Shown: piece by piece, positions 30,934-55,553 of the stretch | How positions within the stretch are numbered: position 1 is the stretch's first letter | How the letters are laid out: each line of letters begins with the position of its first letter | Assembly: GCA_958295985.1 (NCBI GenBank) | Contig: OY282432.1 | Location: 3,195,001-3,259,000, forward strand | DNA length: 64,000 nt | Direction of reading: 5' to 3' | From: an uncultured Candidatus Binatia bacterium | Lineage (GTDB): Bacteria; Desulfobacterota; Binatia; UBA9968; JAJDTQ01 | The notes under the pieces: model-generated | What the model was told of the DNA's origin: nothing | The model's input: the letters and a program-made list of their open reading frames with translations, nothing else | The model's database searches: none | Made by a program: the position numbers and the translations under genes

Positions 30934-31171
30934 TAATGCGCTGTGACCAGGATCACCAAGCGGACCGTCCCGGAGGCTTGAAAGTGGGCTTGAAACGGCA
31001 ACATGGATATGGACCTGCCATCCGCAGCCTCCTGCAACCGTCGTAATCGGCTGCTTGAGCCTGGACCGCGCTCCGGCCGGGACGACGCGAAGCAGCTCAT
31101 CGAGTCATAAAAACGCCCAAACGGAATCACGTCCGCGTTCCGCCGGGGAAAGCAGGAAGGTTGGTCTCGGC

Positions 31172-35082: not shown

Positions 35083-35526
35083 TTATCCAGGTGGGCTGGA
35101 AAGGGTCACGGTTCCAACGTTCCCATTGTAAACAAGGGTGAACGCCCGTAGGAATGTTCTGCCAATCAGAGCCTGATGGGGTTGCCCACCGGCGACCAAA
35201 TGAACACCGGAGAACCTACCGTACGTTGTGAAGTTCAGGGCCGGAACATGGATTTGCGCGAGATGTATATTGACCTCGGCACTCCCATGAACGCCCGAAA
35301 CCAGATCCCTATCGACGATCGGAAGCTTTAACGTTGCGGCAAGGGTGGAATCTATACAGCTTTGGGTTGCTCCGGTATCAACTAAGGCTGGGTATTGCGT
35401 CTCTGGCAAATTTGGGTGGCCTTGGTCAGGCTTGAAGTGCGGATCAAAGCCAATCGATACCCACAGAGTGGGTCCAAATTTTACCAACTGATTCTGATTA
35501 GGAAAGCCGCACTCAACCTTCGACAT
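35083..35526 (-). CDS. Retropepsin-like aspartic protease family protein
   Basis: 147 residues from ATG 35526 (a longer frame begins at 35574). The catalytic LVDTGATQSCID motif is near residue 53, with a later flap-like YGRFSGVHLV and a final QALIGRTFLRAF strand, as in clan AA proteases. The start overlaps the preceding small gene by 14 bases, so they are coupled. Biological role of these pairs unknown. It has the lower GC of the neighbouring defence gene, suggesting shared origin. Confidence 0.78.
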   Translation of the reverse strand: MSKVECGFPNQNQLVKFGPTLWVSIGFDPHFKPDQGHPNLPETQYPALVDTGATQSCIDSTLAATLKLPIVDRDLVSGVHGSAEVNIHLAQIHVPALNFTTYGRFSGVHLVAGGQPHQALIGRTFLRAFTLVYNGNVGTVTLSSPPG

Positions 35527-35761
35527 TAACGGGCCTGTAAACCACTGAAGCCGGGAGAGACGTAGGTGGTGCACCGATTTCTCTGATCAGATACGGCCCT
35601 CGACCGAACCGTTGCACCGCTTCCGCCGCCGCTACCTCAAATGACTCATATGTCCCAACGAGTTGCTCGTCATGGACAAGAACCCACTCCCCCAGGTGTT
35701 CAGTCTCAAGATCGCTACGCAGGTTCTCGTAGGCGGCAATTTCCTTTTTGAGGGTGCTCAT
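35513..35761 (-). CDS. Small protein coupled to a retropepsin-like protease
   Basis: 82 residues from ATG 35761 (GGGGAGG upstream; a longer frame starts at 35791). Reads as alpha-beta: an N-terminal amphipathic helix (KKEIAAYENLRSDLETEHLG), then WVLVHDEQLVGTYESF, a helix rich in Ala, and GPYLIREIG. This layout matches small proteins often found directly before bacterial retropepsin-like genes, where they may be substrates, inhibitors or partners. No membrane segment. Assignment of function is not possible. Confidence 0.7.
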   Translation of the reverse strand: MSTLKKEIAAYENLRSDLETEHLGEWVLVHDEQLVGTYESFEVAAAEAVQRFGRGPYLIREIGAPPTSLPASVVYRPVNVEG

Positions 35762-36003: not shown

Positions 36004-36705
36004 TTACGAGTCGGTGGGCGTGTCGTCGTCCTTGCCGTGGAGGGCATACCAGTAGATGCCGTTCATGTAGCGCCAACGCCGGACGGTGGCGTCGCGCACG
36101 GCTTCGATGGCCTGTTGCCGAAGCTCCGGGGTGTCGCAGTACTTCTCCACCAGCGCGAGTCCCTTGGAGCCGTGCAGCGCGTCCGCCTCGATGTGCTCCT
36201 CGAAGAAGCGAATCTCTCTGGCGCCGGAGGCATAGCCGTAGTGGTCCCTGAGGGCCGGTACGACCTTCTCGCAGATGCCGAGGAACTGGGACTCCAGGCC
36301 CACGAACATGGCTGCCAGCGCCGCCTGCCAGCGCCGCTGGTAAACCACCCGCCAGCCCCAGTTCTGCAACCCCTCGGTACTGGGCAGCACCGGATACCCG
36401 TCCACGCAGTCCCTGGGCAGGCCGCTGGCGCCGACGTAGTCCTTCAGCATGTCGAGATGCCGGTCGTCGGGATTTTCCTCGTCGCCGAGGTTCTCGTAGA
36501 GAAACGCCTTGGCGTCGCGGTAAGGGACCTGCGAGGCCTCGTAGGCCATCCAGTCCAGATAGTCGCTGACGTAGTGGTAGTGCTGGGTGCAGTAGATGGC
36601 CGTCTGCTCGGGGGTCAGTTCGCCCCGCGCCCACTTTTCGAAGAATGGGTGGTCCCGGCTGTGCTTCGCATCCCGGACCGCAATCAATTCGTCGCCAAAA
36701 CCCAT
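36004..36705 (-). CDS. PqqC/TenA-like heme-oxygenase-fold protein (possible diiron oxygenase)
   Basis: 233 residues, all-helical. It starts with an HPFFEKWARGELTPEQ helix typical of PqqC/TenA proteins, then QHYHYVSDYLDWMAYEA, with His/Glu placed as metal ligands. E-N-L-G-D-E-E near residue 72, the EEHIEADALHG motif near 168, and ATVRRWRYMNGIYW near the end complete the pattern of HDO-type enzymes (E-H-E-H ligands). It is the last gene of the run 38460-36004, after a UbiD decarboxylase and an unknown small protein, so it probably acts on the product of that route (inference). Confidence 0.75.
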   Translation of the reverse strand: MGFGDELIAVRDAKHSRDHPFFEKWARGELTPEQTAIYCTQHYHYVSDYLDWMAYEASQVPYRDAKAFLYENLGDEENPDDRHLDMLKDYVGASGLPRDCVDGYPVLPSTEGLQNWGWRVVYQRRWQAALAAMFVGLESQFLGICEKVVPALRDHYGYASGAREIRFFEEHIEADALHGSKGLALVEKYCDTPELRQQAIEAVRDATVRRWRYMNGIYWYALHGKDDDTPTDS

Positions 36706-36722: not shown

Positions 36723-37043
36723 CTAGGCGGGTCCCGTTTCCGCGGCCCGACGCAGCGCTCCGTAGAAGTCCCGGTACGGGATGCCGGCGATCTCCTGGGG
36801 CATCTCCCGGACGATCTCGACGGTGTAGGACCCCGGCAGCACCACGCCCACCACGGTGCGGACCGCGAGCCGGTCACCCGGGCCGCCGTCCTTGTGAACG
36901 ATGCCCACCACGTGCCTGATCCCGTACTTGCCGCGACCCGGTCTCAGGTCCCGCAAGACCAGGGGCGCCTCGACGCCGGGCTGGAGGTCCCCCGGCCTGC
37001 GCACGAAGGTGTCCCAGACCCGCGGCTCACTGCTTGAAGCCAT
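36723..37043 (-). CDS. Hypothetical protein coupled to UbiD
   Basis: 106 residues; not recognised. It overlaps the end of the UbiD gene by 17 bases and stops 17 bases before the PqqC-like gene, so it is translated in the same operon. Beta-rich: RHVVGIVHKDGG, then a VVGVVLPGSYTVEIV hairpin, and a C-terminal helix. It has no cysteines, so it is not a VdcD/BsdD-type zinc subunit. High-GC codon use matches its neighbours, which supports it being real. Confidence 0.6.
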   Translation of the reverse strand: MASSSEPRVWDTFVRRPGDLQPGVEAPLVLRDLRPGRGKYGIRHVVGIVHKDGGPGDRLAVRTVVGVVLPGSYTVEIVREMPQEIAGIPYRDFYGALRRAAETGPA

Positions 37044-38460
37044 ACTCGCTCCAGTTCTTCAGCACCTTCTCCTGCAGCTCCTTGGAGAAGATCGAATCCA
37101 GGGTCGCCTTCACCGGCGTCTCCCACTCCCGCGACCATTCCCCGGGCCAGGTGCAGTCGTACAGGACCGTGGCGCCCTTCTGTGTCGCCCGCTCCGCCTG
37201 GCTGTAGCAGGGCGTCAGCGTATTGGCCCGCCCCTCGTAGTGGATCACGTGGATGCCGTTGGCCGGGTGGCACTTGGTGGAGAAGGCATGGAGGACCTTT
37301 CCCATATCGAACACGTCGGTGTCGGTATCCACCAGGAAGAGCTTCGAGAGCAGCGCCCGGCGCGAGGTCAGCACCTGAAGCACCTTCCTGGCCACTTCCT
37401 GGCCGCCGTAGTCCACGCTCATGACCGCCAGATGCACGGCGCCCTCCGGCGGCACGTACACGTCCCGCACCGGCACCCCGTGGCGCTCGAGCCGTCGCTT
37501 GATGGCCAAGGCCCCGGACAGCGCGGTTACCGTCGAGCTGTCATCCTTGTAACCGGTGGCGTCGACCGTGAGCACGGGCTTCTCCCGGTGGGTGATGGCG
37601 GTGGTCCGAAACAGGATGCCGTTGCCCATCTCCCCGGTGCGGTAGCCCGGGTACTCCCCGTAAGGCCCCTCCAACCCCACCCGGTCGGGCAGCACTTCGC
37701 CCTCGATGACGATCTCGGAACGGGCCGGCGCCAGAAGATCGCTGGTCTCGCAACGGACCATCTCCACCGGCCTGCCGCGCAGACCTCCGGCCAGGCTCGC
37801 CTCGTCGCCACCAAGGGCGTAGGTGGCGGCCGCGGCAAAGTGCGAGAGCGGGTCCGTGCCGATGGCGATGGCCAAGGGCATGGGCTTCCCCTTGACGACG
37901 TAGTGCTCCTGAAAGACCTTGCCCAGGTGGCTCGTGGGCCTCGGGAAGCCGGTCAGATGATGCGCGTCGTAGACCATGAAGCGGTACATGCCCCAGTTGA
38001 CCCAGCCGCTGTCCACGTCCTTCGAGATGACCAGATCCCAGGTGCCCAGGTAACGCCCGCCGTCGCCGTCGTGAAGCATGGGGGTGGGCAGGTCGAAGAG
38101 GTCGGCGTCGGACCCCTTGCGTATGACCTGTTTGCACGGCGCCTCCGTCACCTCCACCGGTTCGATGGGGTTCGCCTCCCCCTTCTCGTAGGCTTCGTAG
38201 ATCTCACGCACCGTGGCCGTGGGCGCGAGCCCCAGCGCGATGGCGATGCGGCGCCAGGTGGCCACCGGATTGACGAACACCGTGACCTCGTCCAGGTAGT
38301 CCGAGACGCGCTTGAACCACACCGCCGGACCGTCCTTCTCGCAGGCCAGCCGGCTGATGGCCCCGAGCTCCAGGTCCCAGCTCACCTCCTTCTCCACCTC
38401 CACGAGGTCGCCGGACTGCCGGAGCGCCTCGATGAAGCTGCGGTTGTCGTCGAAAGTCAT
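37027..38460 (-). CDS. UbiD-family decarboxylase (prFMN-dependent)
   Basis: About 477 residues from ATG 38460. UbiD enzymes use prenylated FMN to decarboxylate or carboxylate unsaturated and aromatic acids. Family segments: GAISRLACEKDGPAV near residue 30; the region around residue 150 with MHYxx-type ligands reads WVNWGMYRFMVYD; the VRDVYVPPEGAVHLAVMSV and FLVDTDTDVFDMGKV blocks follow near 330-380. No UbiX flavin prenyltransferase is seen in the window, so prFMN must come from elsewhere. It heads a run with a small unknown gene and a PqqC-like protein. Confidence 0.88.
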   Translation of the reverse strand: MTFDDNRSFIEALRQSGDLVEVEKEVSWDLELGAISRLACEKDGPAVWFKRVSDYLDEVTVFVNPVATWRRIAIALGLAPTATVREIYEAYEKGEANPIEPVEVTEAPCKQVIRKGSDADLFDLPTPMLHDGDGGRYLGTWDLVISKDVDSGWVNWGMYRFMVYDAHHLTGFPRPTSHLGKVFQEHYVVKGKPMPLAIAIGTDPLSHFAAAATYALGGDEASLAGGLRGRPVEMVRCETSDLLAPARSEIVIEGEVLPDRVGLEGPYGEYPGYRTGEMGNGILFRTTAITHREKPVLTVDATGYKDDSSTVTALSGALAIKRRLERHGVPVRDVYVPPEGAVHLAVMSVDYGGQEVARKVLQVLTSRRALLSKLFLVDTDTDVFDMGKVLHAFSTKCHPANGIHVIHYEGRANTLTPCYSQAERATQKGATVLYDCTWPGEWSREWETPVKATLDSIFSKELQEKVLKNWSEYGFKQ

Positions 38461-38545: not shown

Positions 38546-39703
38546 CTACCCCGGGCCTTCATCGAGGGCGATGAGGGTGAAGACCTTCTTCATCTCCTGT
38601 TTCCTGAACCTGGCGGACAGGCGGCGCATCACCTCGCCCTTGTTCTCGGACAGCTTGATGCCCACCTTGCGGTATTCGGCCATCACCCGGCTCTTGAACT
38701 CCATCTCTTCACGCACCGTGGCGATGCACTCGTCGATGCACGTCCTGAACCGCTCGATGTCATCGTCGGCGTACTCCTCCGACAGGAGCGGATAGAGCGT
38801 CTCGTAGGTCAGCACGTCCTGGGTCTCGAACAGGTTCCAGCAGGTGGCGGTCACCGCGGCCTTGTTGATGCCGGCTACCCAGTGCACCTCCTCCACCGAT
38901 TCGGGCTTGCACTTGAACAGCACGGTGTCGCCGTCCCGCGTGCGCACGTACCACACGGCGCCCTCGACGCCGGCGATCTTGCCGTCCTCCGCCGGCCGGT
39001 TGCCGCTATCGAGTCTTTGACGAATCGCGCCGTACTCGGCCACCGGGTCCCTCGCCGCGGCCAGGGTGCCGTACAGGGTCGCCACCGGAACCCCCCGGCT
39101 GTCGAGGACCGACGGCGGCCGCGGTCTTCCCCCTTCGCCGACGCCGAACAGCAGCACGCAGTCCAGGGGTTCCTCGTAAAGGATGAGATGGGTGTTGCGC
39201 CTGCCGTAGAGCTCGAAGCCGAGGGCGCAGCCGTTGATCTCCACCAGCTCCGGGATCACCGGATAGCGGAGCAGCATCTCCCGCCACATGTCCAGGAACG
39301 CGCCGAACCGCCCGTTGCGCAACACCGGGGAAAGACGGAGCTTGTAGGTCCGATAACGGCGGCCCTGGGCGTCACGATAGGCGTAGGCCAGCACATTCGT
39401 ACCGTCGTATTTCTCGAAGATCTCGATGGCGCGGAGGGGCGGGAAGTCGAACCGGCCTTGCCGGTCGAAGGGGTAGTGCAGCTTGGGCGTGGCAAAGACG
39501 AGCTGCGGAGCGGGTTCCTCGTTCACGTGGGTGACCGCCAGCGCCCCGTACCGGTGGTCCGGCCTGGTGGACAGAAAGCCTCGCAGGGCGACGTCATTGA
39601 ACGGATCGACGACGTCGAACTCCTGGAGCCATTTGGCGTCCAGGGACAGGCTCCGGGTTGCGATGTCCAGGTCTTCCACAGTTATCTTCGTACCGGAAAA
39701 CAT
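38546..39703 (-). CDS. ATP-dependent RNA ligase-like protein
   Basis: 385 residues with the covalent nucleotidyltransferase motif set. Motif I is Lys98-x-Asp-Gly-Thr-Asn (KYDGTN), the adenylated lysine. Motif III/IIIa is GFELYG at 162-167. Motif IV is Glu247-Gly in VEGAVWYVR. Motif V is FKCKP at 263-267. An N-terminal FATPKLHYPF strand resembles Rnl-type RNA ligases, and the C-terminal ~110 residues are helical. Such enzymes seal RNA ends. It sits alone among catabolic genes with no polynucleotide kinase or RtcB partner, so its role (repair or defence) is open. Confidence 0.75.
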   Translation of the reverse strand: MFSGTKITVEDLDIATRSLSLDAKWLQEFDVVDPFNDVALRGFLSTRPDHRYGALAVTHVNEEPAPQLVFATPKLHYPFDRQGRFDFPPLRAIEIFEKYDGTNVLAYAYRDAQGRRYRTYKLRLSPVLRNGRFGAFLDMWREMLLRYPVIPELVEINGCALGFELYGRRNTHLILYEEPLDCVLLFGVGEGGRPRPPSVLDSRGVPVATLYGTLAAARDPVAEYGAIRQRLDSGNRPAEDGKIAGVEGAVWYVRTRDGDTVLFKCKPESVEEVHWVAGINKAAVTATCWNLFETQDVLTYETLYPLLSEEYADDDIERFRTCIDECIATVREEMEFKSRVMAEYRKVGIKLSENKGEVMRRLSARFRKQEMKKVFTLIALDEGPG

Positions 39704-39736: not shown

Positions 39737-41071
39737 TCACGGCTCCCTCCGGTCCCGTATGCGCCGCACCTTGATGCGGTCCTCCACGCCCAGGGAGCGG
39801 CCCAGCTCGCCGGGCGACAGGAGCACGGCCTCCATGGTGAGATTCGTCGCCACCTTGAGCTCCCGCTCCAGCCTTCGCTTGATCTCCGCGCCGGCGCCGC
39901 AGCCGGGCCGCATCTCCACCTCCACCGTCAACGCGTCCTGCTGTCCCGCGCGGTCCACCGTGACCCGGTATTCCCGGGTGAGCTGCGGCAGACGCTCCAG
40001 CGCGCTCTCCACCGAGGTGGGATAGAACGGGATGCCGCTGACCTTGACCATGTCACTCAGGCGGCCCCTGAGCTTGGAGATGCGCCGGAAGCTGCGGCCG
40101 CAGCCGCAGTCGCCCTCGATGAACGCGCACAGGTCCTCGATGTTGTAGCGGATCACCGGCGCCGCCTCCTTGAAAAGACAGGTGACCACCAGCACGCCCT
40201 CGCGGCCCGGCGGCACGGGCTCGTGAGTGGCCGGGTCGAGCACCTCGAAGATGTATGCGTCCTCGTTGACGTGGTAGCCGTCCCGTTCCTCGCACTCGAA
40301 GGACGGGGAGCCGGTCTCCACACTGCCGAAATTGTCGTAGGCAGCCACGCCCCAGCGGCTCTCGATGGCGCGTCGGGCCGGCTCGGTCATGGTCTCGGCG
40401 GTATGGATCGTGCGGCGCAGGCGAAAGTCCTTCCTGAGGTCGAATCCCTGCCGCTCGGCCACGTCGGCGAGGTGGAGCACGTAGGACGGCGTTCCCGCCA
40501 GCACGGTGACGCCCCAGTCCCGCGCGATCTTTACCTGCCGCTCGCTCGGGGTGACGCTGCCGCTGCCCGTGGGCACCACCAGAGCCCCGAGCCGCATGGC
40601 GCCCTCGGAGGCGGTGAATCCCACGATGAACAAGGTGTAGGCGAAGACGACCTGGAGGATGTCCCCTTCCCTCACGCCCTGGGCGTGGAGGCGCCGGCTC
40701 CACAGCCGGGCGATGATGTCCCAGTCGTTACGGGTGAAGAAGAAGGGCTTGGGATTGCCCGAGGTGCCCGAGCTTGCCTGGACCCGCACCGCGGCAAAGT
40801 CGCCCTGGTAGTCGCCAAAGGGCGGGTGGAGCCGCAGGCTGTCCTCGAAGTCGCTCTTGCGGATCACCGGGAGCTTGCGGATGTCGGCCGCGGTACGGAT
40901 GTCCTCGGGCTCGACCCCGGACGCCTTCCAGCGCTCGCGGTAGAAGGGAATATGCTCCCAGGACCGCCGGACCAGCGCCGCCAGACGCTCTCCCTGCATT
41001 CGACGGATGGCTTCCGGCGCCGCGGTCTCGATCTTCAGGCTTTCCGGAGCGCTGGGGTACATCTCCGCCAC
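39737..41071 (-). CDS. Phenylacetate-CoA ligase-like adenylate-forming enzyme (PaaK family)
   Basis: 444 residues from GTG 41071 (AAGGA upstream; an ATG at 41062 is also possible). ATP-binding P-loop SSGTSGNPK is at residues 100-108. The N-terminal IPFYRERW is typical of PaaK. A later AYDNFGSVETGSPSFECEE segment contributes the substrate and adenylate pocket, and a KLRGRLSDMVKVSG hinge near 340 precedes the C-terminal domain. It activates an aromatic or other carboxylic acid to its CoA thioester. Co-directional with OCD copy 2, 10 bases apart. Confidence 0.87.
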   Translation of the reverse strand: MAEMYPSAPESLKIETAAPEAIRRMQGERLAALVRRSWEHIPFYRERWKASGVEPEDIRTAADIRKLPVIRKSDFEDSLRLHPPFGDYQGDFAAVRVQASSGTSGNPKPFFFTRNDWDIIARLWSRRLHAQGVREGDILQVVFAYTLFIVGFTASEGAMRLGALVVPTGSGSVTPSERQVKIARDWGVTVLAGTPSYVLHLADVAERQGFDLRKDFRLRRTIHTAETMTEPARRAIESRWGVAAYDNFGSVETGSPSFECEERDGYHVNEDAYIFEVLDPATHEPVPPGREGVLVVTCLFKEAAPVIRYNIEDLCAFIEGDCGCGRSFRRISKLRGRLSDMVKVSGIPFYPTSVESALERLPQLTREYRVTVDRAGQQDALTVEVEMRPGCGAGAEIKRRLERELKVATNLTMEAVLLSPGELGRSLGVEDRIKVRRIRDRREP

Positions 41072-41081
41072 GGAACGATCC

Positions 41082-42149
41082 TTATGGGTGTATCGTCTCC
41101 AGAAACCAGTCCGTGGGGATCTCCCTGCCCAGGCCCTCCTGCTTGGCCAGCTCCAGGACCCTGGCCCCCACCGCGGCAAACTGGATGCCCATGCCCACGT
41201 TGTTCTTGTAGACGGTGATGTCGGCGTCCCGGGCTCGCCCCCTGGCCTCGCCAACCATGAGCTTGCCCAGCTCGTGGATCTTGTCCCAGCCGAACACGCC
41301 GGCCTCGATGGGCTCCAGCAGGTCGGGATGGCCGGCATACTCGGACTGGGCGCGGGAGTTGATGACGATCACGTCGGCCCGGCGCAGCGTCACCTCGTCC
41401 AGCTCGATGCGCTTGACCGACTCGTCGCTGTTCACGATGGAGCCCACGTGCGTGCCCTCGTCCAGCCATTCCCCCTCGAACGTGGGCTCGTTCGTATTGG
41501 TGGCCGACATGACGATATCCGAGCCGGCGACAACGTCCCTGGGATCGTCCATGGCCGCCACCGGCAAACCCAGCCTTTCGCTCCAATCCGAGGCGAATGC
41601 CCGCCGGTGCTCCGGGTTGGGGCTGAAGACCTTGACCCTGTCCAGCTTTCGGACCTTGGAGATGGCTTCGATGTGCGCTCCCGCCTGAAGGCCCGAGCCG
41701 AACAACCCCAGCACGCGGGCGTCCTCCCGGGCCAGGTACTTGACTCCCAGGGCGCTGGTGGCCCCCACCCGGGTCTTCTGCAGGAATCCGTCCTGGATGA
41801 TCGCCAGGGGCTCACCCGTTTCGAGGCTGAAAAGCTGGATCAGGCCCACGAACTTCTTCCCCGCGGCCGCCGGGACCTTCTCCTGCCGTACCCGCCCGGA
41901 AACCGTCGGGAAGTGAACGATGTCCGAGGAGAGCCGCAGGGCCATGACGCCGAAGCGGGGAACTGCGCCGTTCATGGTCTTGAGACGGTAGGAGCGCCTG
42001 GAGCTTTCCAAAGAGACGTACGTGTGGGTACGGAGCTGGTTGACCGCGATCTCCCGGCCCAGATCCTGGAACGCCTGCTCCACGGCCTCCAGGCAGACGT
42101 CCATGGAGAGGACCTTCTCGACCTCGTCGTTGTTCAGGATATGGGTCAT
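41082..42149 (-). CDS. Ornithine cyclodeaminase / mu-crystallin family protein (OCD copy 2)
   Basis: 355 residues. Conserved VGLIQLFSLETGEPLAI strand, TRVGATSALGVKYLAR helix, Rossmann GLFGSGLQAGAH near residue 147 and DIVMSATNTNEP near 211. Closer in layout to copies 1 and 4 than to copy 3. The start is ATG 42149. Its stop is 10 bases before the CoA ligase, suggesting that imine or amino-acid chemistry and CoA activation belong to one pathway. The reaction is not assignable. Confidence 0.88.
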   Translation of the reverse strand: MTHILNNDEVEKVLSMDVCLEAVEQAFQDLGREIAVNQLRTHTYVSLESSRRSYRLKTMNGAVPRFGVMALRLSSDIVHFPTVSGRVRQEKVPAAAGKKFVGLIQLFSLETGEPLAIIQDGFLQKTRVGATSALGVKYLAREDARVLGLFGSGLQAGAHIEAISKVRKLDRVKVFSPNPEHRRAFASDWSERLGLPVAAMDDPRDVVAGSDIVMSATNTNEPTFEGEWLDEGTHVGSIVNSDESVKRIELDEVTLRRADVIVINSRAQSEYAGHPDLLEPIEAGVFGWDKIHELGKLMVGEARGRARDADITVYKNNVGMGIQFAAVGARVLELAKQEGLGREIPTDWFLETIHP

Positions 42150-42220
42150 CGCCGCGTCGTCCTCCCGGTCCGGCTATCGTCGCGCCTCCGTTGGAGAGCA
42201 GCGCACAGGCGGCGGCCCGT

Positions 42221-42787
42221 TCACGCCTGCGGCTCGATGAGCGTCACCGCACCGGTTTCCACGTTGTAGCGCCGGCGCAGGATCCGGTTGAGGTCCGCGC
42301 TCAGGAACCGGAAGACCACGGCGGGCGTTTCCGCGGCATGGGTCGAATGGATCTGGCCCGTGAGGTAGGGGTAGACCACGCCCGGCCCCAGCTTGTGGAC
42401 CTCCTCCGCGCGCAGGTCCGCCCTGTCGGCGCTCCTGCCGTCATCGGTGCGCTGGTAGAGGGTAATCTCCGTGAGTCCCTGATAGGCGCCGTAGACCACC
42501 CAGCAAGGCCCGTGGTCGTGGGGCAGGTTGCCGTGCCCCTGCGGGTGCACGTGTCCCATCTGGATGAAGCCGTAGTCCGGATCCCGGTAGAGCTCCCTGG
42601 ACGGGTCCGCGTCACGGATGATCTCGGCCATCCAGGGGTCGTCCGGACGGGTGGACGCGAACATCCGCTCCATGGCCGACTTCACCTTGAAGGGCAACTC
42701 CGCATCCTGACTGTCTCTCCAAAGAGAGCGAACCTCCTCGATGTAACGGTCGAACGTATGGCCCGTTGTCGCCGGATCAAGCGCCAT
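42221..42787 (-). CDS. Cysteine-dioxygenase-like cupin (double-stranded beta-helix metalloprotein)
   Basis: 188 residues. The central MGHVHPQGHGNLPHDHGPCWVVYGAYQG stretch (residues ~75-105) shows the His-x-His and iron-site pattern of the cysteine/thiol dioxygenase and related cupin group. STHAAETPAVVFRFLS supplies the later His. The N-terminal helix region is typical too. It may oxidise a thiol or act on another small acid. The 72 bases to OCD copy 2 suggest co-transcription. Confidence 0.7.
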   Translation of the reverse strand: MALDPATTGHTFDRYIEEVRSLWRDSQDAELPFKVKSAMERMFASTRPDDPWMAEIIRDADPSRELYRDPDYGFIQMGHVHPQGHGNLPHDHGPCWVVYGAYQGLTEITLYQRTDDGRSADRADLRAEEVHKLGPGVVYPYLTGQIHSTHAAETPAVVFRFLSADLNRILRRRYNVETGAVTLIEPQA

Positions 42788-43007
42788 TTCACACCTCCTT
42801 GGTGGTGCCTGGGACCTCTGTCTGCCCCTGCGTGGCCATCGTCGTCGGGATTAGTTGGCGGGATTATACAGCAACACCGTGGGGAATCACAGCGGCCGAA
42901 AGTGCGCTGGAGTGCGGCGGCGCCAACTTGACAACCCCGGACCCTTCGGGGATGATCGGCGCTTCCTGGCACAGAAAAGGCAACCGCCGCTTTCCACCGG
43001 AGCTTTC

Positions 43008-44123
43008 ATGATACTCGCCATCGACAACGCCGAAGCGCAGCGTCTCCTCGACATGGAACTCAGCATGTCGGCCCTCGAGGAAGCCTATCGGGATCTCGGC
43101 ACGGGGGCCTCCATCACGAGTCCCCGAATCGACCTCCTCACGCCCGATTCCTACGTGGACGGCGACGGCAACACGCTGCCGGGCGCCCACAGCCTGAAGA
43201 CCATGTCGGCGGCCACCCGGAAGTACGCGGCCATTCGATTCCTCACGGACAAGCTCTTCTGGCAAGAGCGCAACGGCAACTTTCGCCGCGACCGGACCCC
43301 GGGGACCAGACGGGCCCACAGCGTGACACGGGGGTTATTGCTCCTGTTCAGCGTGGAGACCGGCGACCTGCTTGCCCTCGTCAGCGAAGGACACATACGC
43401 AATCTCCGCGTGGGAGCGGCCGCGGGCTTGGCGGCCAGACACCTTGCCCGGACCGACGCCTCCACCCTCGGCGTGCTCGGCACCGGCTTCATGGCGCGCG
43501 CGCACCTGGACGCCATGCTGAAAGCAATGAAGGGTATCGAGTCGGTTCGGGTTTTCAGCCCCAACCCTGAGCACAGGCAGCGCTTCGTCGAGGACTCGCG
43601 GGGGGAGGGACGCCCGGAGACGGTGGCGGTGGACAGCCCGGAGAACGCCGTCCGCGGAAGCGAGATCGTCGTCGTCGCAACCAACGCCCTCACGCCGGTG
43701 ATCCAAACCGGCTGGCTGGAGCCCGGGATGTACGTGTGCTCGGTACGCCACTGCGAGATCGCACCGGAGACTTTCGGCCGTTTCGATATTCTCGCGGTCA
43801 ACTCCAAGGAGAATCTGGGACCCACGACCTTCGTGGCCAGGAACGCGAAGGGGCCGCTGCCGGAGCAGGTCTTGCTGGATATAGACAAGGGTTATCCTCC
43901 CGGCGACGCCGTGGAGATCGACTGGGGTCATGCCCCCGACCTGCCGGACCTCCTGCTCGAGCGTCACCCGGGCCGGACGGACCCGGCGCAGGTCGCCTGC
44001 TTCAACAACAGCGTCGGTTTCGGGCTTCAGTTCGCCGCCCTGGCAGGGAAGGTCTACGAAGCGGCCGTGAGCCGGGGAGCCGGACGGGAAGTCCCCGACG
44101 ACGTGTTTCCCGATCTGTTCTAA
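43008..44123 (+). CDS. Ornithine cyclodeaminase / mu-crystallin family protein (OCD copy 3)
   Basis: 371 residues from ATG 43008 (GGAG 6 bases upstream; a longer frame from 42855 adds unlikely sequence). It has the family LLLFSVETGDLLALVSEGHIRNLRVGAAAGLAARHLAR region, Rossmann VLGTGFMARAHL near residue 155 and EIVVVATNALTP near 218. It is the only plus-strand OCD gene in the 36-46 kb block; more divergent from copies 1, 2 and 4. It lies opposite the 42221-42787 gene, start-to-start about 220 bases apart. Confidence 0.87.
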   Translation: MILAIDNAEAQRLLDMELSMSALEEAYRDLGTGASITSPRIDLLTPDSYVDGDGNTLPGAHSLKTMSAATRKYAAIRFLTDKLFWQERNGNFRRDRTPGTRRAHSVTRGLLLLFSVETGDLLALVSEGHIRNLRVGAAAGLAARHLARTDASTLGVLGTGFMARAHLDAMLKAMKGIESVRVFSPNPEHRQRFVEDSRGEGRPETVAVDSPENAVRGSEIVVVATNALTPVIQTGWLEPGMYVCSVRHCEIAPETFGRFDILAVNSKENLGPTTFVARNAKGPLPEQVLLDIDKGYPPGDAVEIDWGHAPDLPDLLLERHPGRTDPAQVACFNNSVGFGLQFAALAGKVYEAAVSRGAGREVPDDVFPDLF

Positions 44124-44142
44124 CACCGCGTCGATTCGGCCT

Positions 44143-45159
44143 TCAGACCTCGACGGCGGGCGGCGGAACCAGGGGGGCTCGATGGGCTCGGTCCAGGCCC
44201 AGCAACCCGGCTGCCGTGCCGCCCATGATCGCGTCCTTCTCGGCGTCGGTCAACGGCAGGCCCCGGATGGCGTCGATGTACTCCCGGAGGGCTGTCATGC
44301 CCTTGCCCGTGTCAGTGCTGACCCCGGTGAAGTCCTGGGGGTAGTCGGTGGCGAACACCAGCCGGTCGGGCCTGATCCCCTGAAGCGCGCAGCCCAGGGC
44401 CGTGGCGCCCCCCTCGAAGCCCGCCATGTCGAAATAGAGCATGTCGAAGTAGTGCTCGAAGGGCTTGTCCAGGGTGCCGAAGCGGTAGGCCTTGGCCACC
44501 AGGCGGTCCTTGACGCCGGCGATTCCGCCGCCGAAGTGGCCGATAACGAACTTGAGGTTCGGGAACCGCTCCAGCACGCCTCCGGCCACGATGCGGGTGG
44601 CGGCTACGGCCAGGTCCACCTCGCGCCCCAGGATGCGGGCCAGATCGTAGTCCATGAGCAGCTCATAGCCCTCGGGGACCATGGCCGGATGAACGAAGAT
44701 GGGCACGTCGAGGGCGCTGACCTTTTCGTAGAACGGATAGATTTGCTCCGAGTCCAGGGGCAGGCCCCGGAACTGGGAGGTGGTGGCGACGCCGTGGAGC
44801 CCCAACTCGCCGATGGCCCGGTCGAACTCGGCCATGGCCGGCGGGCCGCCCAGCAGCGGCGCCTGGGCCAGTCCGACGAAGCGTCCGGGGAAGCGGCGTT
44901 GCAGTTCCGCCAGGGAATCGTTGATGGTGCGGTTGTCCTCGAGGGTCGCGTCCCAGCCCAGCAGACACGACAACACCGAGACGTCCACTCCGGCGTCGTC
45001 CATGTCCCGGAGTTGCATCTCGGCATCGTAGAGCCGGGCGTGCATGGTCAACCGCGGCACGCCCGTATCCAGCTTGGCGAACAACGGCTCTTCGGAGTAG
45101 AGCCCGTGCTTCTTTGCGATTTCCCTGGGCACGTAGTGATGCTGGAAATCGACGATCAT
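44143..45159 (-). CDS. Amidohydrolase-2 family metal-dependent hydrolase or decarboxylase
   Basis: 338 residues from ATG 45159 (AGGA 4 bases upstream). The N-terminal VDFQHHYVP motif contains the paired His metal ligands. KFVIGHFGGG near 205 and FATDYPQDF near 275 match the ACMSD-type branch. A C-terminal hydrophobic tail ends RAPLVPPPAV. It follows OCD copy 4 on the same strand, 79 bases apart. Possible decarboxylation or ring-opening of an aromatic or heterocyclic acid (inference from family). Confidence 0.88.
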   Translation of the reverse strand: MIVDFQHHYVPREIAKKHGLYSEEPLFAKLDTGVPRLTMHARLYDAEMQLRDMDDAGVDVSVLSCLLGWDATLEDNRTINDSLAELQRRFPGRFVGLAQAPLLGGPPAMAEFDRAIGELGLHGVATTSQFRGLPLDSEQIYPFYEKVSALDVPIFVHPAMVPEGYELLMDYDLARILGREVDLAVAATRIVAGGVLERFPNLKFVIGHFGGGIAGVKDRLVAKAYRFGTLDKPFEHYFDMLYFDMAGFEGGATALGCALQGIRPDRLVFATDYPQDFTGVSTDTGKGMTALREYIDAIRGLPLTDAEKDAIMGGTAAGLLGLDRAHRAPLVPPPAVEV

Positions 45160-45238
45160 GAAATCCTCGCGACGTTGGAGAGAACCGGGCCGGTGGAACG
45201 GGCCTCCGACAGGGACGCACTGCGCACCGACGCTCGGC

Positions 45239-46327
45239 CTACGGAGAAGGCGAAAAGCCCTTGTCCAGCCACTCGCCCAGGTCTGCGCCAAACCACTCGG
45301 TGGGGAGCTCGCGGCCCAGGCCCTTCTTCTTGCAGGCCTCGTAGATCACCGCGCCCGCGGCGGCGAACTGGATGCCTACGCCGGTATTGCTCTTGTAGTA
45401 GATGAGCTCGTCGTCGTTCTTGCGCCCGGGATTCCGGCCGATGAGGACCTCTCCCAGCTCGCAGATCTTGTCCCAGCCGATCTTTCCTTCGTCGATGAGA
45501 TCGAGCATCTCCCTTTGCTGGTTGTGAAGCGACGTCTCCCGGTTGTTGAGCACGATCAACCCGGCCCGGGTGAAGGTGGTCTCATCCGCCTCGGTACGGC
45601 GGTGCACGCCGTCGCTGTTGACGATGGTGGTGACGAGCTGGCCGGGCGCCAGCCACTCCCCGTCGAACACGGGCGCGCTGGCGTTGGTGGCGCACATGAT
45701 GATGTCCGCGCCGTCCACCACGGCCCTGGCATTGTCCACCGGACGTACCTGGATGTCGAGCTTGCCGGTCATCTCCATGGCGAACCGTTCCCGGTGCTCG
45801 CGGGTGACGCTGTAGACGCGTACTTCCCGCACGTCCCGCACCGCGCAGATGGCGGCGAGGTTCTGCTCCGCTTCGTTGCCCGAGCCGAACAGCCCCACCA
45901 CCCGGCTGTCCTCCCGGGACAACGACCGGGTGGCTACGCCGGTGGTGGCGCCGACCCGTATGGAGGACAGACTGAAGTCGTGGATGATGGCCAGGGGCTC
46001 GGCGCTCTCAAGGCTGAACAGCAGCACGAAACCCCAACTCCGCCGCGCGGGGTACGGGTAGTCCATGCGTTTGAGACCGTCGACCATCCGCTCCCGGACC
46101 ACCATGGAGTCATAGCGGAGCGCCGCGACCCCGGAGCTCGGCACCGCGCCGGGGATGATGTTGGCCATGTAGCCGTCGGAATCGCGGTCCGGCGGCACCT
46201 TGTACCGTGTACGGGGCTTGTTGACCGCGACGCCACGGGCCTCCTCGGCAAAGGCGCGCTCCATGTCGTCGATGATGTCCTCTACCCGGAGCACCTGCTT
46301 CACGTCCGGGTCGGTGATCAACAGCAT
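45239..46327 (-). CDS. Ornithine cyclodeaminase / mu-crystallin family protein (OCD copy 4)
   Basis: 362 residues from ATG 46327 (GGGGAG upstream). It has the WGFVLLFSLESAEPLAI strand, the SSIRVGATTGVATRSLSR helix, Rossmann VGLFGSGNEAEQNL near residue 150 and DIIMCATNASAP near 213. FNNRETSLHNQQ-like segment and a KSNTGVGIQFAAAGAVIYE C-terminal helix match the family. First gene of a pair with an amidohydrolase. Confidence 0.88.
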   Translation of the reverse strand: MLLITDPDVKQVLRVEDIIDDMERAFAEEARGVAVNKPRTRYKVPPDRDSDGYMANIIPGAVPSSGVAALRYDSMVVRERMVDGLKRMDYPYPARRSWGFVLLFSLESAEPLAIIHDFSLSSIRVGATTGVATRSLSREDSRVVGLFGSGNEAEQNLAAICAVRDVREVRVYSVTREHRERFAMEMTGKLDIQVRPVDNARAVVDGADIIMCATNASAPVFDGEWLAPGQLVTTIVNSDGVHRRTEADETTFTRAGLIVLNNRETSLHNQQREMLDLIDEGKIGWDKICELGEVLIGRNPGRKNDDELIYYKSNTGVGIQFAAAGAVIYEACKKKGLGRELPTEWFGADLGEWLDKGFSPSP

Positions 46328-46579: not shown

Positions 46580-46655
46580 GAGCCGTTAGCTCAGCAGGTA
46601 GAGCATCTGCCTTTTAAGCAGAGGGTCGCCGGTTCGATCCCGGCACGGCTCACCA
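46580..46655 (+). tRNA. tRNA-Lys (TTT)
   Basis: 76-base cloverleaf with encoded CCA. Acceptor GAGCCGT pairs with ACGGCTC, D-arm GCTC/GAGC, anticodon stem TCTGC/GCAGA with loop CTTTTAA giving anticodon TTT, and T-arm CCGGTTCGATCCCGG. It stands 43 bases from the end of hsdR, so the type I restriction island begins next to it. tRNA 3' ends are common integration sites. Confidence 0.97.
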
Positions 46656-46698
46656 ATAAAATCAAAAGCGTTGGCCAGCCTGGTGAATCGCCGCATGC

Positions 46699-49600
46699 TC
46701 ATCCGTACGTTTCCCCGCCCAGAACTTCGACGACCTCCGCGATAACTTGCAATTGTCCCTCCTCCGCGCCCGTAAGAACGATGGGCGCGAAATCTCTGTT
46801 GACGGGTCTGAGCGTAATTTTCGTATGGCGCCAAGAGTCTCCGTCGCCCGCCTTCTCGCTCTGGTAACGCTTGACGGTGTACCGCTGCCCGCTCTCCGGG
46901 TCAGTGGCGTCGCGCATCTGCACGAGCACCGTTTTCCCTTGGCGCGCGCCCTCTACGGGCGCCGCAAAGAGGCAGTGCGCACCATCAGGAATGCGCGGCG
47001 CCATGGACCTGCCGACCACCTGGGCGACGAACATGCCGCGACGGAGACGGCGTGTGGTCTCGACCGCTACCCACGCAAAATCATCGTCGTCAATTTGTTG
47101 GGGATCGCTGAATGCGCCCGCGGCGGCTTTGAGAGGCACAAGAGGCACGCAGGTCACGTAGCGCTCCTCTGGTTGGGGCTCGACGACCCGCAGGCGCGGC
47201 GGCAATGTAGCGAGCTCCGCCTGCTCCGACGCTTGGCCAACATCGTTGCCTTTCAGGCGTCGATACGCTTCCGACGACATCCATTCCATCACGGTGTTCT
47301 GAAAAGCCGCATCGTTCATGAAGCGGACGAAAATGCCTTCGTTCTGGTCCATGCGTTCGACAAAGAGATTCTCCAGCAACCCCTTGAACACCAACTCGAA
47401 CTTGTCGCCCGGGTTAACCGCCGCCGCCTGCCGCACCCTGTCGTCGGCCATCGCCGCTTCGACGATCTGGTCGAAGAAAAGCTGATCCGCCTGGTTGAAG
47501 TCCGTGCCGAATCGCTCGTTCAAAGCGTCGATGAGTTGCGAGAGCGGCACCGGCTGCGGGCGCACCATGCCGCTGCCGACCTCCGTTGGCCCGTCGAGCG
47601 GCCGGGCCTCGCCGTTTTGAAGCGCGATGGACCCCTCGCTGATCTTCTGCAAGCGGTAGTAATCGAGCCGTACCTCGTCATCGAACCGGTACGCCGGCCC
47701 GCTCTTGCGACGCGGCAGCTTTGCCGCGAGATGGCGGAGGAACACGTACAGCCGCTCGAGATCCGAGTCCTGGTACGGAATCACCTGACTCAGAAACGCA
47801 TAGAGGTTCAAGAACGCCTGCAGCTTGCCGCGCCAGTCTTCCGCCGCTTCCTCGTTTGCGTCCCGGCGGGCAGCGAAGCGCGATACGGCCGGATCGATGG
47901 CGGCGTTCATGGTGCGGTGATCCGCTGCGCTCTGCCGCTGCTTGGGCGCAAAATAGACACCGCAGAACCGCTCGACCTCTTCGTCCAGGTAAACGCCTGA
48001 AGCGTCCAGTTCGCCCTTGATTGCGTACATGCGGGCGGGGTCCACTTCCTCGCCCATCTCGGCGCCTTCGTAATAGGTCTTGAAGGCTTCCTGAATCTCC
48101 TCCCGGTCGTTGACGAAGTCGAGCACGAAGGTGTCTTCCTTGCGTGGATGAACCCGGTTCAGCCGTGACAGCGTCTGCACGGCCTGAATGCCCGCCAGCC
48201 GCTTGTCGACGTACATCGTGTGCAGGAGCGGTTGATCGAAGCCGGTCTGATACTTCTCTGCAACCAGCAGCACCTGATATTCCTGCGTCGCGAACTTTTC
48301 CGGCAACGCCTTCTCGGAGAGGCCGTGGTTCATGCCCGGCTCGGTATAGGTGACGCCGGCGAGCTTGTCGTCCTCCACGGCGCCCGAGAAGGCCACCAGC
48401 GACTTGATGGCGTACCCCTTTTTCTGAATGTAGCGGTCGAAGTTCTGCTTGTAGCGAACCGCTTCGAGGCGCGACCCTGTCACCACCATCGCCTTGGCTC
48501 GGCCGCCGATTCTGTGCCGGGTGACCGCGTGGAAATGTTCCACTATCACCGCGGTTTTCTGCGCAATGTTGTACGGGTGCAGCCTCATGAACCGCGCCAA
48601 CGCTTGCGCCGCCTTCTTGCGCTCGACATTGGGGTCGTCGTCGCACGCCTTGAGCAGGTTGAAATACGTCTTGTAGGTCGTGTAGGACTTCAGCACGTCG
48701 AGGATGAATCCTTCCTCGATCGCCTGGCGCATGGTGTAGCGGTGCACGGGCCGCCCATCGCGGCCGAACACGGCCAGCGTCTTGTGCTTGGGCGTGGCGG
48801 TGAAGGCGAAGAAACTCAGGTTCGCCTGCTTGCCGCGCTTGGCCATGCTGCGAAACAACGCCTCCAGGTCTTCCCGGCCTTCCTCTGCCGCTCGCTGTCT
48901 GGCCGCTTTGCGCAGCGCTTCGCCACCGAGCACTTCCTTGAGGTCGGCCGCCGCCTCGCCGCCCTGAGAGCTGTGGGCTTCGTCGACGATCACGGCGCAA
49001 CGCCGGGTGGCGAGCGTCCCCGTTCCGGTGGCGCCGCGTTCCTCGGCCATCTTGAGCAACTGACGCGAGACGAACGGGAATTTTTGCAGGGTGGTGATGA
49101 TCACCGGCACCGCATTCTCAAGCGCTTCAGCGAGTTGCCGCGAGTTGTCGTCGATCCGCTGCACGACGCCGCGCTTGTGCTCGAACTGGTAGATGGTGTC
49201 CTGGAGTTGCTGGTCCAGCACGACGCGATCCGTCACCACGATCACGCTATCGAAGACGCGCTCGTTGGCGGCGTCGTGCAGGGACGCGAGACGATGCGTC
49301 AGCCAGCCGATCGTGTTGCTCTTGCCGCTCCCCGCCGAATGCTCGATGAGGTAGTTGTTGCCCACGCCCTCGCGGCGCGCGGCGGCTACCAGCGTACGCA
49401 CCGCCTCAAGCTGATGGTAGCGGGGGAAGATCATCGACTCGGTCGGGACCCTGCGGCCGTGATCGTCGCGCTTCTCTTCGATCTGCAAGTGAATGAAACG
49501 GGCGAGGATGTCGAGCAGGCTGTCGCGCTGCAGCGCCTCTTCCCACAGGTAGGCGGTACGGTAGGTACGTCCCGCCGCATCAGGTGGGTTCCCGGCGACT

Positions 49601-50253
49601 CCGTTGCAACCCCTGTCGAAGGGCAGAAAGCGCGTCGCTTGGCCGGCCAGGCGCGTGGTCATGAGCACCGATTCGGTATCCACCGCAAAATGCACCAGCG
49701 CGCGTCGCTTGAAGACGAAGATCGGCTCGCGCGGCTCGCGGTCCCGCTGGTACTGGCGCACCGCATCCTCCACCCGCTGGCCTGTCAGCGGGTTCTTCAG
49801 TTCCAGCGTCACGACGGGGATGCCGTTCAGGCTCAGCGTGACGTCCAGCGACTGTTCGGAACGCGGCGAAAAGTGGAGTTGGCGGGTCAGCCCCAGACGG
49901 TTGGCCGCGTAGCGGGATTCAAGCTCGGGATTCAACTCGTGCGCCGCCTTGAAGTACGCGGCGCGCAGCGTTCGCCCGTAGCACTTGAACCCGTGCCGCA
50001 GGGTCGCAAGCGCGCCGTTGGCGTCCATCCACTTGCAAAGATCGGTAAGGATCTGCTCGCCGGTCCTGGCGCCGTGCAGCGCTTCGAGCTTCTCCCACGC
50101 CTGCGGTTGCGTTTCGCGGATGAAGGCGAGAACCACATCGGGAAAAATGGCGCGCTCGCGGTCGAAGCCGTCCCCCGCTATCGAGACGTACCCGTTCTCC
50201 AGCAGGTGGGCTTCAATGACGGCTTCAAAGGCGGCTTCGCTCGTGTGCTTCAT
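46699..50253 (-). CDS. hsdR: Type I restriction enzyme HsdR subunit fused to a C-terminal S24 (LexA-like) peptidase domain
   Basis: 1184 residues. The N-terminal nuclease core shows Asp137 and Glu151-x-Lys153 in TLELKNP (PD-ExK). Superfamily 2 motor: Walker A AGSGKS at 307-312, DEAH at 424-427, and SLSRLNR-type motif VI near residue 745. From about residue 1060 an S24 peptidase-like domain follows: [13 protein letters not shown] with candidate nucleophile Ser1083, and YTVKRY with Lys1128, spaced like LexA/UmuD. HsdR cuts DNA after translocation in unmodified contexts. The extra domain suggests autocleavage or controlled release. Start ATG 50253; a small ORF overlaps it. Confidence 0.9.
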
Positions 50254-50381
50254 GTCATCTCCGTCCCCGGATGCGCAACTCTTCCACGATTCATAGTTGG
50301 CCGTCGAGTACTGAGCGGGAGAATGCCATGAGGAAGCGCGCCAACCTCGCGTTCGACGATTGCGGTCAACGGACTGTTCAT
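50250..50381 (-). CDS. Possible small ORF overlapping hsdR start
   Basis: 43 codons from ATG 50381 ending in a TGA that overlaps the hsdR ATG (ATGA), with GGAAAGGA upstream. The overlap suggests coupled translation, a leader for hsdR. The composition is basic and unremarkable and there is no recognised domain; it may be chance. The rest of the 204-base gap between the DUF6575-like gene and hsdR shows nothing else. Confidence 0.3.
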
Positions 50382-50457
50382 GCCGTGCTTTCCTTTCCGT
50401 CGGTTCCGATCACACCCTCAGCTACGTCTGTCATTGCACGCACTACCCGCTCTACAC

Positions 50458-51618
50458 CTACAACCTCTCCTGTCGATTGAGATGCAGGACATGTTTCTCT
50501 TCGCCAATGATGCTGACTTCCTCTATCTCGTCATCGCAGTAGAACCTGTACGAGCCGCCCACTTCCAGTCCGTCCAGGCTCGGACCTCCGTCTCCGATCT
50601 TTCCCGAACGTGCGCCTTCAGCCGTGAGCAACCCCCACATGCCAGTGTTTCGATTGAATTTCTCGAACGTACCTTCCAGGGTAATCGGTTCACTCCCGAG
50701 CTTATGGACGTGCGACAACACTTCGACCAGTGGCGCGGCCTGCCTTTCCGCCACCCCGCGAATGGTCGGCTGCTCCGAGTTCGGCAAGGCCCACGAATAG
50801 TGAACTCCGGTTTGCGTCTCTCTCAAGAAGCGCAAGAATTTCAGATAGGCTCCCGCCAAGTGCCCGCGATTAGCCTCGATCACGGCAAGCGTGTCGTCGG
50901 GACTAGCGGCGTGCTCGAACAGCCTGTCCACTCGGGGAAGCGCGGTTGCGATCTCACTCTCGCCAAGAAGGTTGAGAGTACCTGCGGCTTCGAAAAGGAC
51001 GCGAAACGAGCCGGCCGCAGCGGGGACGACGACATCGAGCAGGTCTTGGTTCGGTTGCCAGTGGGCAAGCGGGTTCTCCTTCCGCATTTCCCTATGCGCT
51101 TTCCTGACCATCGTCTGCACGTGCTGAAGCAGCTCTGCAAGATTACCCGCACGGATACGATGCTGCGTAGCCGCCTCGGGGGGTTCGGCGACAACTTCCA
51201 GAACGAGGTTGTTACGTTGCCGGGCTTCCTTGACCAAGCCGTCCGAAGGCCTGTCGTGGAGCAGGAAGCCGGGGTCGGGAAGCATCCCACTGTCCAGGAG
51301 CGAACCGGTCAACCGCTCAAGATGCAGCGGACCGTCAATACCAACCGATGTCGTTGCGGTGTAGTGTTCGTCCTCTTCGGAACCCACCAGCAGGGAGCGC
51401 AGGTCGATCTCGCCGCCGCGGAACAGTCGTAGCTGCTCCGGAGCCACACCGACAACGAGATAGCGCTCACGTCCTTCGCCTGGGGGCGGCTCGGAGAGGG
51501 AGCGTGCATCGGGTTCCACCGCCACTGCCGCGTAGTGGCCTCCGATGGCGTCACGGGCTTCGAACACCTGGGGGCCGTCGTAGTAGAACAGCGTGCCCTT
51601 ATAGTGAACCGACTTCAT
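50458..51618 (-). CDS. Accessory protein in type I restriction locus (DUF6575-like, with C-terminal beta-rich domain)
   Basis: 386 residues from ATG 51618 (GGAGG 4 bases upstream). It opens with YKGTLFYYDGPQVFEARD, a beta-rich segment recalled from the DUF6575 family, followed by YLVVGVAPEQLRLF. The middle is helical (GNLAELLQHVQTMVRKAH), and the C-terminus has an OB-like LEGTFEKFNRNTGMWGLL stretch, then YRFYCDDEIEE. No catalytic motifs. It lies between the 95-codon gene and hsdR, co-directional. A regulator or protection factor for the restriction enzyme is possible, inferred from position only. Confidence 0.6.
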   Translation of the reverse strand: MKSVHYKGTLFYYDGPQVFEARDAIGGHYAAVAVEPDARSLSEPPPGEGRERYLVVGVAPEQLRLFRGGEIDLRSLLVGSEEDEHYTATTSVGIDGPLHLERLTGSLLDSGMLPDPGFLLHDRPSDGLVKEARQRNNLVLEVVAEPPEAATQHRIRAGNLAELLQHVQTMVRKAHREMRKENPLAHWQPNQDLLDVVVPAAAGSFRVLFEAAGTLNLLGESEIATALPRVDRLFEHAASPDDTLAVIEANRGHLAGAYLKFLRFLRETQTGVHYSWALPNSEQPTIRGVAERQAAPLVEVLSHVHKLGSEPITLEGTFEKFNRNTGMWGLLTAEGARSGKIGDGGPSLDGLEVGGSYRFYCDDEIEEVSIIGEEKHVLHLNRQERL

Positions 51619-51701
51619 GACGCCTCCACGGCGCATTGGCCAAGAATGTCGTACCGCGCAAACGGCCACCACGTGTGATGTGACCGCGCCCCTCGGTCCG
51701 C

Positions 51702-55459: not shown

Positions 55460-55553
55460 CAGTTCGGTACCCATGCAGAGCGGACACGGGCAGGTTTGAA
55501 ACCCGCCCGTACGCGGGCGATGAGGTTCTCAAGGCGAACGCCGCGCGCTCCGG

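Follow-up and report, generated by a model that had tools for sequence, protein, structure and literature searches.

Composition of the gene cluster

Do neighbouring genes for ornithine cyclodeaminase (OCD) family enzymes, a CoA ligase, a thiol-dioxygenase-like cupin and an amidohydrolase in an uncultured Candidatus Binatia bacterium form a single degradative pathway, and which of them stay together in related genomes? We addressed this question for a stretch of 64,000 nucleotides (the window; contig OY282432.1, G000:C1:3195001-3259000) from a genome of 4.29 Mb (G000). A preliminary description of the window had proposed that these genes, together with UbiD and a PqqC-like enzyme, form a conserved cluster for an amino-aromatic or sulfur-containing compound. 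Across 35 genomes of the same order, the constant core is instead UbiD and a small protein resembling phenylphosphate carboxylase gamma, with an acyl-CoA ligase as their constant neighbour. Judging from the sequences, this heart, probably devoted to aromatic or heteroaromatic CO2 chemistry and to acyl-CoA, is combined in the genus with a second module that probably acts on the same compound, namely an OCD enzyme (OCD4), an amidohydrolase, a ferredoxin and a flavoprotein.

The features of the window considered below are the following.

36004..36705, minus strand: haem-oxygenase-like di-iron enzyme (CADD/PqqC-like), PF14518 at 2.5e-25; variable addition
36723..37043, minus strand: gamma-subunit-like small protein of 106 aa, overlapping UbiD by 17 nt; core
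37027..38460, minus strand: UbiD-family prenylated flavin mononucleotide (prFMN) (de)carboxylase, PF01977/20695/20696; core
38546..39703, minus strand: RNA-ligase-like protein, with motifs KYDGT, ELYG, EGAVW and FKCKP recognized by eye; variable passenger
39737..41071 (GTG start at 41071) or 41062 (ATG start), minus strand: PaaK-type aryl-CoA ligase, PF14535 and PF00501; core
41082..42149, minus strand: OCD/mu-crystallin enzyme (copy 2), PF02423 at 9.5e-48; in 4/8 genus members
42221..42787, minus strand: thiol-dioxygenase-type cupin, profile match to 8vni at 1.9e-8, fold match with TM 0.79
43008..44123, plus strand: OCD/mu-crystallin enzyme (copy 3), PF02423 at 2e-32; in 8/8 genus members
44143..45159, minus strand: ACMSD-like Amidohydro_2 protein, PF04909 at 4.8e-31, tail altered from about 44195 down
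44192..44195, no strand: scar of a 1.9 kb deletion, where two alignment arms meet with a 4-nt overlap
45239..46327, minus strand: OCD/mu-crystallin family enzyme (copy 4, OCD4), PF02423 at 8.4e-43; recurs with the core order-wide

All genes named in the preliminary description are open frames where it had placed them and have family support from Pfam/NCBIfam, profile or structure searches; for OCD4, the amidohydrolase, UbiD and the PqqC-like gene this support includes Pfam matches. The whole set spans 10.3 kb and is divided by the plus-strand OCD gene (43008-44123) into two minus-strand units, an upper one transcribed in the order OCD4 (46327-45239) and amidohydrolase (45159-44143), and a lower one in the order cupin, OCD copy 2, PaaK-type ligase, RNA-ligase-like gene, UbiD, gamma-like gene and PqqC/CADD-like gene. 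Absent from the preliminary description are this plus-strand OCD gene, the RNA-ligase-like gene, the 106-aa gene and the flavoprotein-derived end of the amidohydrolase. The 220 bp gap between the divergent cupin and plus-strand OCD genes contains a promoter-like match for the latter. By consensus matching only, four promoter-like matches occur in the region vs 1.2 expected in shuffles, and terminator-like matches are at chance level (5 vs 4.7 expected).

Conservation was tabulated for 18 genomes, comprising 17 of the 35 order genomes, which have a UbiD orthologue (at least 68% identity), and G115, which has none. The genus is represented by nine genomes including that of the window, eight of which hold the locus; f3 denotes another family of the order.

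The UbiD, gamma-like and CoA ligase genes

UbiD is a full protein with three UbiD domains. Residues R160, E264, E269, N155, H178 and E220 are invariant in 12/12 orthologues; by alignment with Fdc1, we take them to include the catalytic Arg-Glu-Glu residues and the metal ligands, both of which mark the prFMN-dependent UbiD family. Among solved structures the protein is nearest to Fdc1 (240 bits) and PA0254 (229 bits), with phthaloyl-CoA decarboxylase at just 60 bits.

The adjoining 106-aa protein appears to be a relative of the gamma subunit in phenylphosphate carboxylase, and the homology is clear in its orthologues: TIGR02725 (phenyl_P_gamma) matches 13/13 of them (best 2.1e-12, window copy 7.4e-4) and PF09662 matches 12/13 (best 1.3e-10, window copy 0.014). 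As a candidate solved relative, the search returned a single match to an unrelated carboxylase subunit at E 0.83, which was disregarded.

The nearest solved relatives of the ligase are phenylacetate-CoA ligases (4r1l, PaaK, 265 bits). The protein has the PaaK-type domains and scores 294 bits against the NCBIfam PaaK equivalog, whose cut-off is 646.3. Genome-wide, a profile search finds one gamma-like gene, located beside this UbiD and none of the other 37 among the 38 UbiD genes, and the cluster ligase is one of two PF14535 genes (PaaK-type ligases). Thus, a trio of PaaK, UbiD and gamma is special in a genome with one gamma gene and two PaaK-type ligases vs 38 UbiD genes. An alignment scan for this PaaK in 84,980 species genomes, which used strict conserved peptide patterns and may miss distant relatives, gave 21 loci, including 12 at 62-92% identity, labelled Candidatus Binatia or Deltaproteobacteria, and nine at 36% or less.

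Conservation of the core in the order

A gamma-like gene adjoins UbiD in all 17 genomes that hold the UbiD orthologue. The PaaK orthologue (at least 62%) adjoins UbiD in 16 of them, counting as adjoining six with an RNA-ligase-like gene in between; in the 17th, G136, another AMP-binding ligase follows gamma instead. A profile search for gamma in 34 order genomes yielded 26 hits. The 17 strong ones coincide with the genomes that have the UbiD orthologue, nine others are weaker, and all 26 belong to two UbiD-gamma sets. At the nine weaker loci, a second UbiD paralogue adjoins gamma in eight, as does an AMP-binding ligase (Pfam was run on one such locus). The gaps are contig ends: locus L200 begins inside gamma (contig G108:C548, where UbiD is not visible), and L198 stops just past gamma.

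Within the genus the cluster is kept in eight of nine genomes including the window's, so the scattering in related genomes that would have spoken against a cluster is not seen; in the ninth, G115 (76% complete), just the RNA-ligase-like gene was seen. The proposal of a conserved cluster therefore stands for the genus, but its conserved members differ from the proposed set. Likewise, a degradative role is likely, with the core formed by PaaK-UbiD-gamma and OCD4-amidohydrolase-ferredoxin-flavoprotein.

The second module and the deletion within it in the window genome

All seven other genus members that hold the locus have the OCD4-amidohydrolase-ferredoxin-flavoprotein module, which in G111 occupies a second contig. 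The amidohydrolase resembles ACMSD and related Amidohydro_2 decarboxylases by family and by best solved match (ACMSD, 83 bits). ACMSD has an HxH metal motif at its N-terminus; the window protein and all four relatives read have QHH at this position, and the window copy differs further by its tail. The flavoprotein of the relatives is a fumarate-reductase-type FAD protein, with orthologues (at least 69%) in 10/34 order genomes and none in the window genome, where the best match has 31% identity.

This absence corresponds to a lesion in the cluster. The window amidohydrolase runs ...LLGLD and then RAHRAPLVPPPAVEV, and its final part matches the flavoprotein C-terminus of relatives. The deletion was mapped by DNA alignment to four relatives; against G113 and G116 the alignments break at 44192-44195 with a 4-nt overlap and 1.90 kb skipped (breakpoints 5106 and 7003 in L105, 2711 and 4615 in L020). 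A 1.9 kb deletion has removed the ferredoxin and flavoprotein genes and fused the last flavoprotein codons to the amidohydrolase. The window copy of the cluster, which has also gained variable genes, may run in part only or may draw on another flavoprotein encoded in the genome.

Outside the genus, OCD4 orthologues (72-73%) lie beside core genes in G122, G130, G137 and G120, and OCD4 alone adjoins PaaK in G130 and G137. The complete second module stands beside PaaK-UbiD-gamma in G122, a member of another family. G120 has the second module followed by a PaaK fragment, and G132 has it without OCD4, in both cases on a different contig from UbiD. In G120 (L150) the OCD4 module comes after several consecutive OCD genes, an arrangement comparable to three tandem OCD genes in the window genome (L152:4870-8198, G000:C1:3125870-3129198), about 5-7 kb from a UbiD.

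The thiol-dioxygenase-type cupin

The cupin has no Pfam or NCBIfam match. Its profile matches mercaptosuccinate dioxygenase (8vni, E 1.9e-8), and 8vni and other thiol dioxygenases are the top fold matches of its AlphaFold model (pLDDT 90), in line with the preliminary reading of this gene. The iron ligands of thiol dioxygenases follow an HxH...H pattern, and the histidines of the PHDH and IH motifs (H90, H92 and H147) are invariant in 16/16 cupins. By predicted fold and by this pattern, the protein would belong with the cysteine, 3-mercaptopropionate and mercaptosuccinate dioxygenases (CDO/3MDO/MSDO), with which it shares about 20% identity.

The gene is in the cluster in 8/8 genus members. 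Orthologues (at least 58%) occur in 26/35 order genomes, 18 of them outside the genus, and none of the 15 contexts examined among these 18 is beside PaaK-UbiD-gamma. The cupin is elsewhere outside the genus, so its link to the cluster is local, with hints of drift among related gene sets: in G120 it adjoins a second UbiD-gamma-ligase unit, and in G133, G134, G122 and G123 a PqqC-like gene lies within about 9 kb of it. We therefore rejected the cupin as a core member on its 15 contexts outside the genus, and the proposed sulfur-containing substrate thus draws on a loosely linked gene.

In nine of these 15 contexts the cupin adjoins a gene of the metallo-beta-lactamase fold, as judged from N-terminal sequence (Pfam/NCBIfam on L095 alone). 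At L095:6235-8563 and similar loci this neighbour matches GloB and Blh, a sulfur dioxygenase (matches for L095), and a flavin reductase gene is also near the pair.

Variable genes of the cluster

The ligase and OCD copy 2 had been described as 10 bases apart, which is valid given the PaaK start at GTG 41071. In 7/7 other genus members a gene for a STAS-domain protein (e.g., L020:7867-8106) lies between OCD/cupin and PaaK, and in 6/7 a gene for an unassigned 112-aa protein does (e.g., L021:11624-11959; undetected in G116). The window has neither, so the tight spacing is specific to the window genome. The STAS-domain gene is possibly a regulator lost from that genome.

All three OCD proteins pass the PF02423 cut-off and none reaches an NCBIfam equivalog cut-off. 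Copy 2, whose nearest solved relative is pyrroline-2-carboxylate reductase (6t3e, 143 bits), is absent in G112, G109, G114 and G110. The PqqC-like enzyme scores 87.5 bits against TIGR04305, under the cut-off; its orthologues (66-74%) are found in 12 genomes of family f3, but the remaining eight genomes of the genus have none (best match 35%). The window genome alone within the genus carries an orthologue, and the enzyme was rejected as a pathway member; like OCD copy 2, it is a point on which the conserved members differ from the set first proposed.

Six of eight genus members carry the RNA-ligase-like gene in the interval from PaaK to UbiD; G113 has it on another contig, and none was detected in G111. 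The family occurs in 15/148 class genomes (one hit marginal), and three f3 genomes have it close to a gene for an SNF2-type helicase (Pfam on one helicase). The protein has no Pfam, NCBIfam or PDB match at default thresholds; the PF09414 RNA ligase model stays short of its cut-off (best E 0.065, 2/9 members), and the AlphaFold model (pLDDT 52) is unusable. Because G113 and G111 lack it at the PaaK-UbiD position and f3 genomes have it at other sites, it was rejected as a core enzyme.

UbiD and OCD genes in the genome at large

Within its 4.29 Mb the window genome holds 29 OCD, 38 UbiD and 98 Amidohydro_2 genes. OCD-UbiD proximity is at random level, with 2/29 OCD genes within 3 kb of a UbiD (random 1.63) and 4/29 within 5 kb (2.61); at 10 kb the count is 10/29 (p 0.045, uncorrected, one of nine tests). 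Genome-wide proximity of OCD, UbiD and amidohydrolase genes, not significant at 3-5 kb, was rejected as linkage evidence. With families this abundant and proximity not above random, co-location alone is weak proof, and conservation in relatives carries the weight.

Each of the 38 UbiD proteins is full length. Pairwise identity has a median of 28% and exceeds 60% in only 4/703 pairs, and 29/38 retain the exact Arg-Glu-Glu. UbiD genes are present in 35/35 order genomes vs 7/108 other class genomes (16 to 125 first-look candidates per order genome, at most 20 scored each). The flavin prenyltransferase UbiX has one TIGR00421 match in the window genome (234.7 bits) and is single-copy over the cut-off in 32/34 order genomes searched.

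A proposed pathway and its alternatives

UbiD with its small gamma subunit, like alpha and gamma of phenylphosphate carboxylase, would add CO2 to or remove it from an aromatic or heteroaromatic ring, and the neighbouring AMP-forming CoA ligase would make, or supply, the acyl-CoA. OCD4, the ACMSD-like amidohydrolase, the ferredoxin and the FAD flavoprotein would probably act on the same compound in redox, hydrolytic or decarboxylating, and imine-reducing reactions. Gene content, gene order in relatives, the intact UbiD active-site residues, the single UbiX and the deletion scar are direct observations, whereas we infer that both modules belong to a single pathway, which way UbiD works and what class of compound it acts on. 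OCD family enzymes act on imino and amino acids and reduce cyclic imines. Since the nearest solved OCD structure is a pyrroline-2-carboxylate reductase, the OCD enzymes, and with them the amidohydrolase and flavoprotein, may act on a nitrogen-containing ring. The amino-aromatic substrate of the preliminary description is suggested by the OCD family name only.

Two known systems couple the same chemistry in opposite order. In the phenol route, phenylphosphate carboxylase makes the acid, which is then CoA-activated; alpha, beta and gamma catalyse CO2 exchange with 4-hydroxybenzoate and delta is required for phenylphosphate (PMC6114531). For phthalate and isophthalate, activation of the acid to a CoA ester by a CoA ligase is followed by decarboxylation by the UbiD-type phthaloyl- or isophthaloyl-CoA decarboxylase (PMC13040137). 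The homology of the gamma-like protein leans to the first order, in which UbiD would make an acid that the ligase then activates; the ring acid need not be phenolic. Like the Thauera aromatica phenylphosphate carboxylase and 4-hydroxybenzoate-CoA ligase (PMC6114531), the locus has a UbiD best matching alpha, a gamma-like protein and a CoA ligase partner. It differs in having one UbiD rather than alpha and beta, no delta in the cluster and an immediately adjacent ligase; phenylphosphate synthase was not seen in the cluster, and the OCD, amidohydrolase, ferredoxin and flavoprotein genes are joined to it. The phthalate and isophthalate systems share the coupling of a CoA ligase to a UbiD-type enzyme (PMC13040137), whereas the UbiD here is nearer Fdc1 than phthaloyl-CoA decarboxylase and is accompanied by gamma.

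Several observations weigh against the proposed pathway. The best NCBIfam model for UbiD, phenyl_P_alpha, gives 378 bits, under its cut-off of 564.6. The window gamma copy is under both curated cut-offs (16 of 25 bits in Pfam, 19.5 of 135.55 in NCBIfam), and Pfam detected no second UbiD (beta) and no HAD-type delta among the ten cluster open reading frames scanned. Outside the genus the two modules are joined just in G122, the different contigs of G120 and G132 being those of fragmented assemblies. Finally, the deletion implies that the second module is dispensable in the window genome or that this copy is decaying.

The original proposal, a single pathway for a sulfur-containing or amino-aromatic compound using the cupin, the OCD enzymes, PaaK, the amidohydrolase, UbiD and the PqqC-like enzyme, draws on the thiol-dioxygenase type of the cupin and its constant presence in the genus, on the known preference of OCD enzymes for imino and amino acids and on the compactness of the locus. 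We regard it as unlikely: outside the genus the cupin keeps other company, more often a metallo-beta-lactamase-fold gene than PaaK-UbiD, the PqqC-like gene is peculiar to the window within the genus, and OCD copy 2 is missing from half of its members. Chance neighbourhood in a genome overloaded with these families agrees with the near-random OCD-UbiD distances at 3-5 kb; yet gene order kept in eight genus members and a core kept in 17 genomes make it a very improbable account of the whole and disfavour it for the core, although the cupin, PqqC-like and RNA-ligase-like genes could yet be chance neighbours. Equally improbable is a biosynthetic cassette such as those for bagremycin and ferroverdin, in which BagN/FevL, a UbiD, and BagE/FevW, a PaaK-type synthetase, work together on aromatic amino-hydroxy acids. 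The corresponding NCBIfam models do match (BagN_FevL 266 bits, BagE_FevW 151 bits), but far under their cut-offs (1000 and 800) and under the phenyl_P_alpha and PaaK scores, and NMT1-type substrate-binding proteins encoded close to the cluster (G122 and G137), with a CoA-transferase in G122, point to uptake and breakdown.

The preferred reading, a UbiD-gamma-CoA ligase heart joined in the genus by the second module, thus keeps the preliminary interpretation in part. A broader suggestion can be made only tentatively and is open to doubt: the heart may be a minimal self-contained CO2-handling unit, a one-UbiD relative of phenylphosphate carboxylase that dispenses with beta, delta and phosphorylation and has acquired no fewer than three different CoA ligases as partners for different ring acids, in genomes where a single UbiX serves dozens of divergent UbiD paralogues. 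In the literature collection searched we found no account joining Binatota with UbiD or ornithine cyclodeaminase with a UbiD gene cluster, and none of UbiD in sponge symbionts; the main text of the Binatota genome paper (PMC8262859) has no mention of decarboxylase, amidohydrolase, aromatic or cyclodeaminase. The locus offers a concrete conserved gene set for testing how prFMN chemistry is used in an uncultured lineage so rich in UbiD genes, and a simple alpha and gamma system in which to study the function of the phenylphosphate carboxylase gamma subunit. The locus also illustrates that the neighbour set of one genome can mislead, its eye-catching tight spacing not being common to relatives.

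Flanking elements

The cluster is flanked by a type I restriction-modification island of about 8.9 kb (46656-55546), which starts at the 3' end of tRNA-Lys (46580-46655); at the same site the relatives G113 and G111 hold 631 and 107 nt. On the other side, in lower-GC DNA (0.602), positions 31055-34876 encode a protein of 1273 aa that contains a SIR2-like domain and may serve in defence, beside a retropepsin-like gene at 35083-35574.

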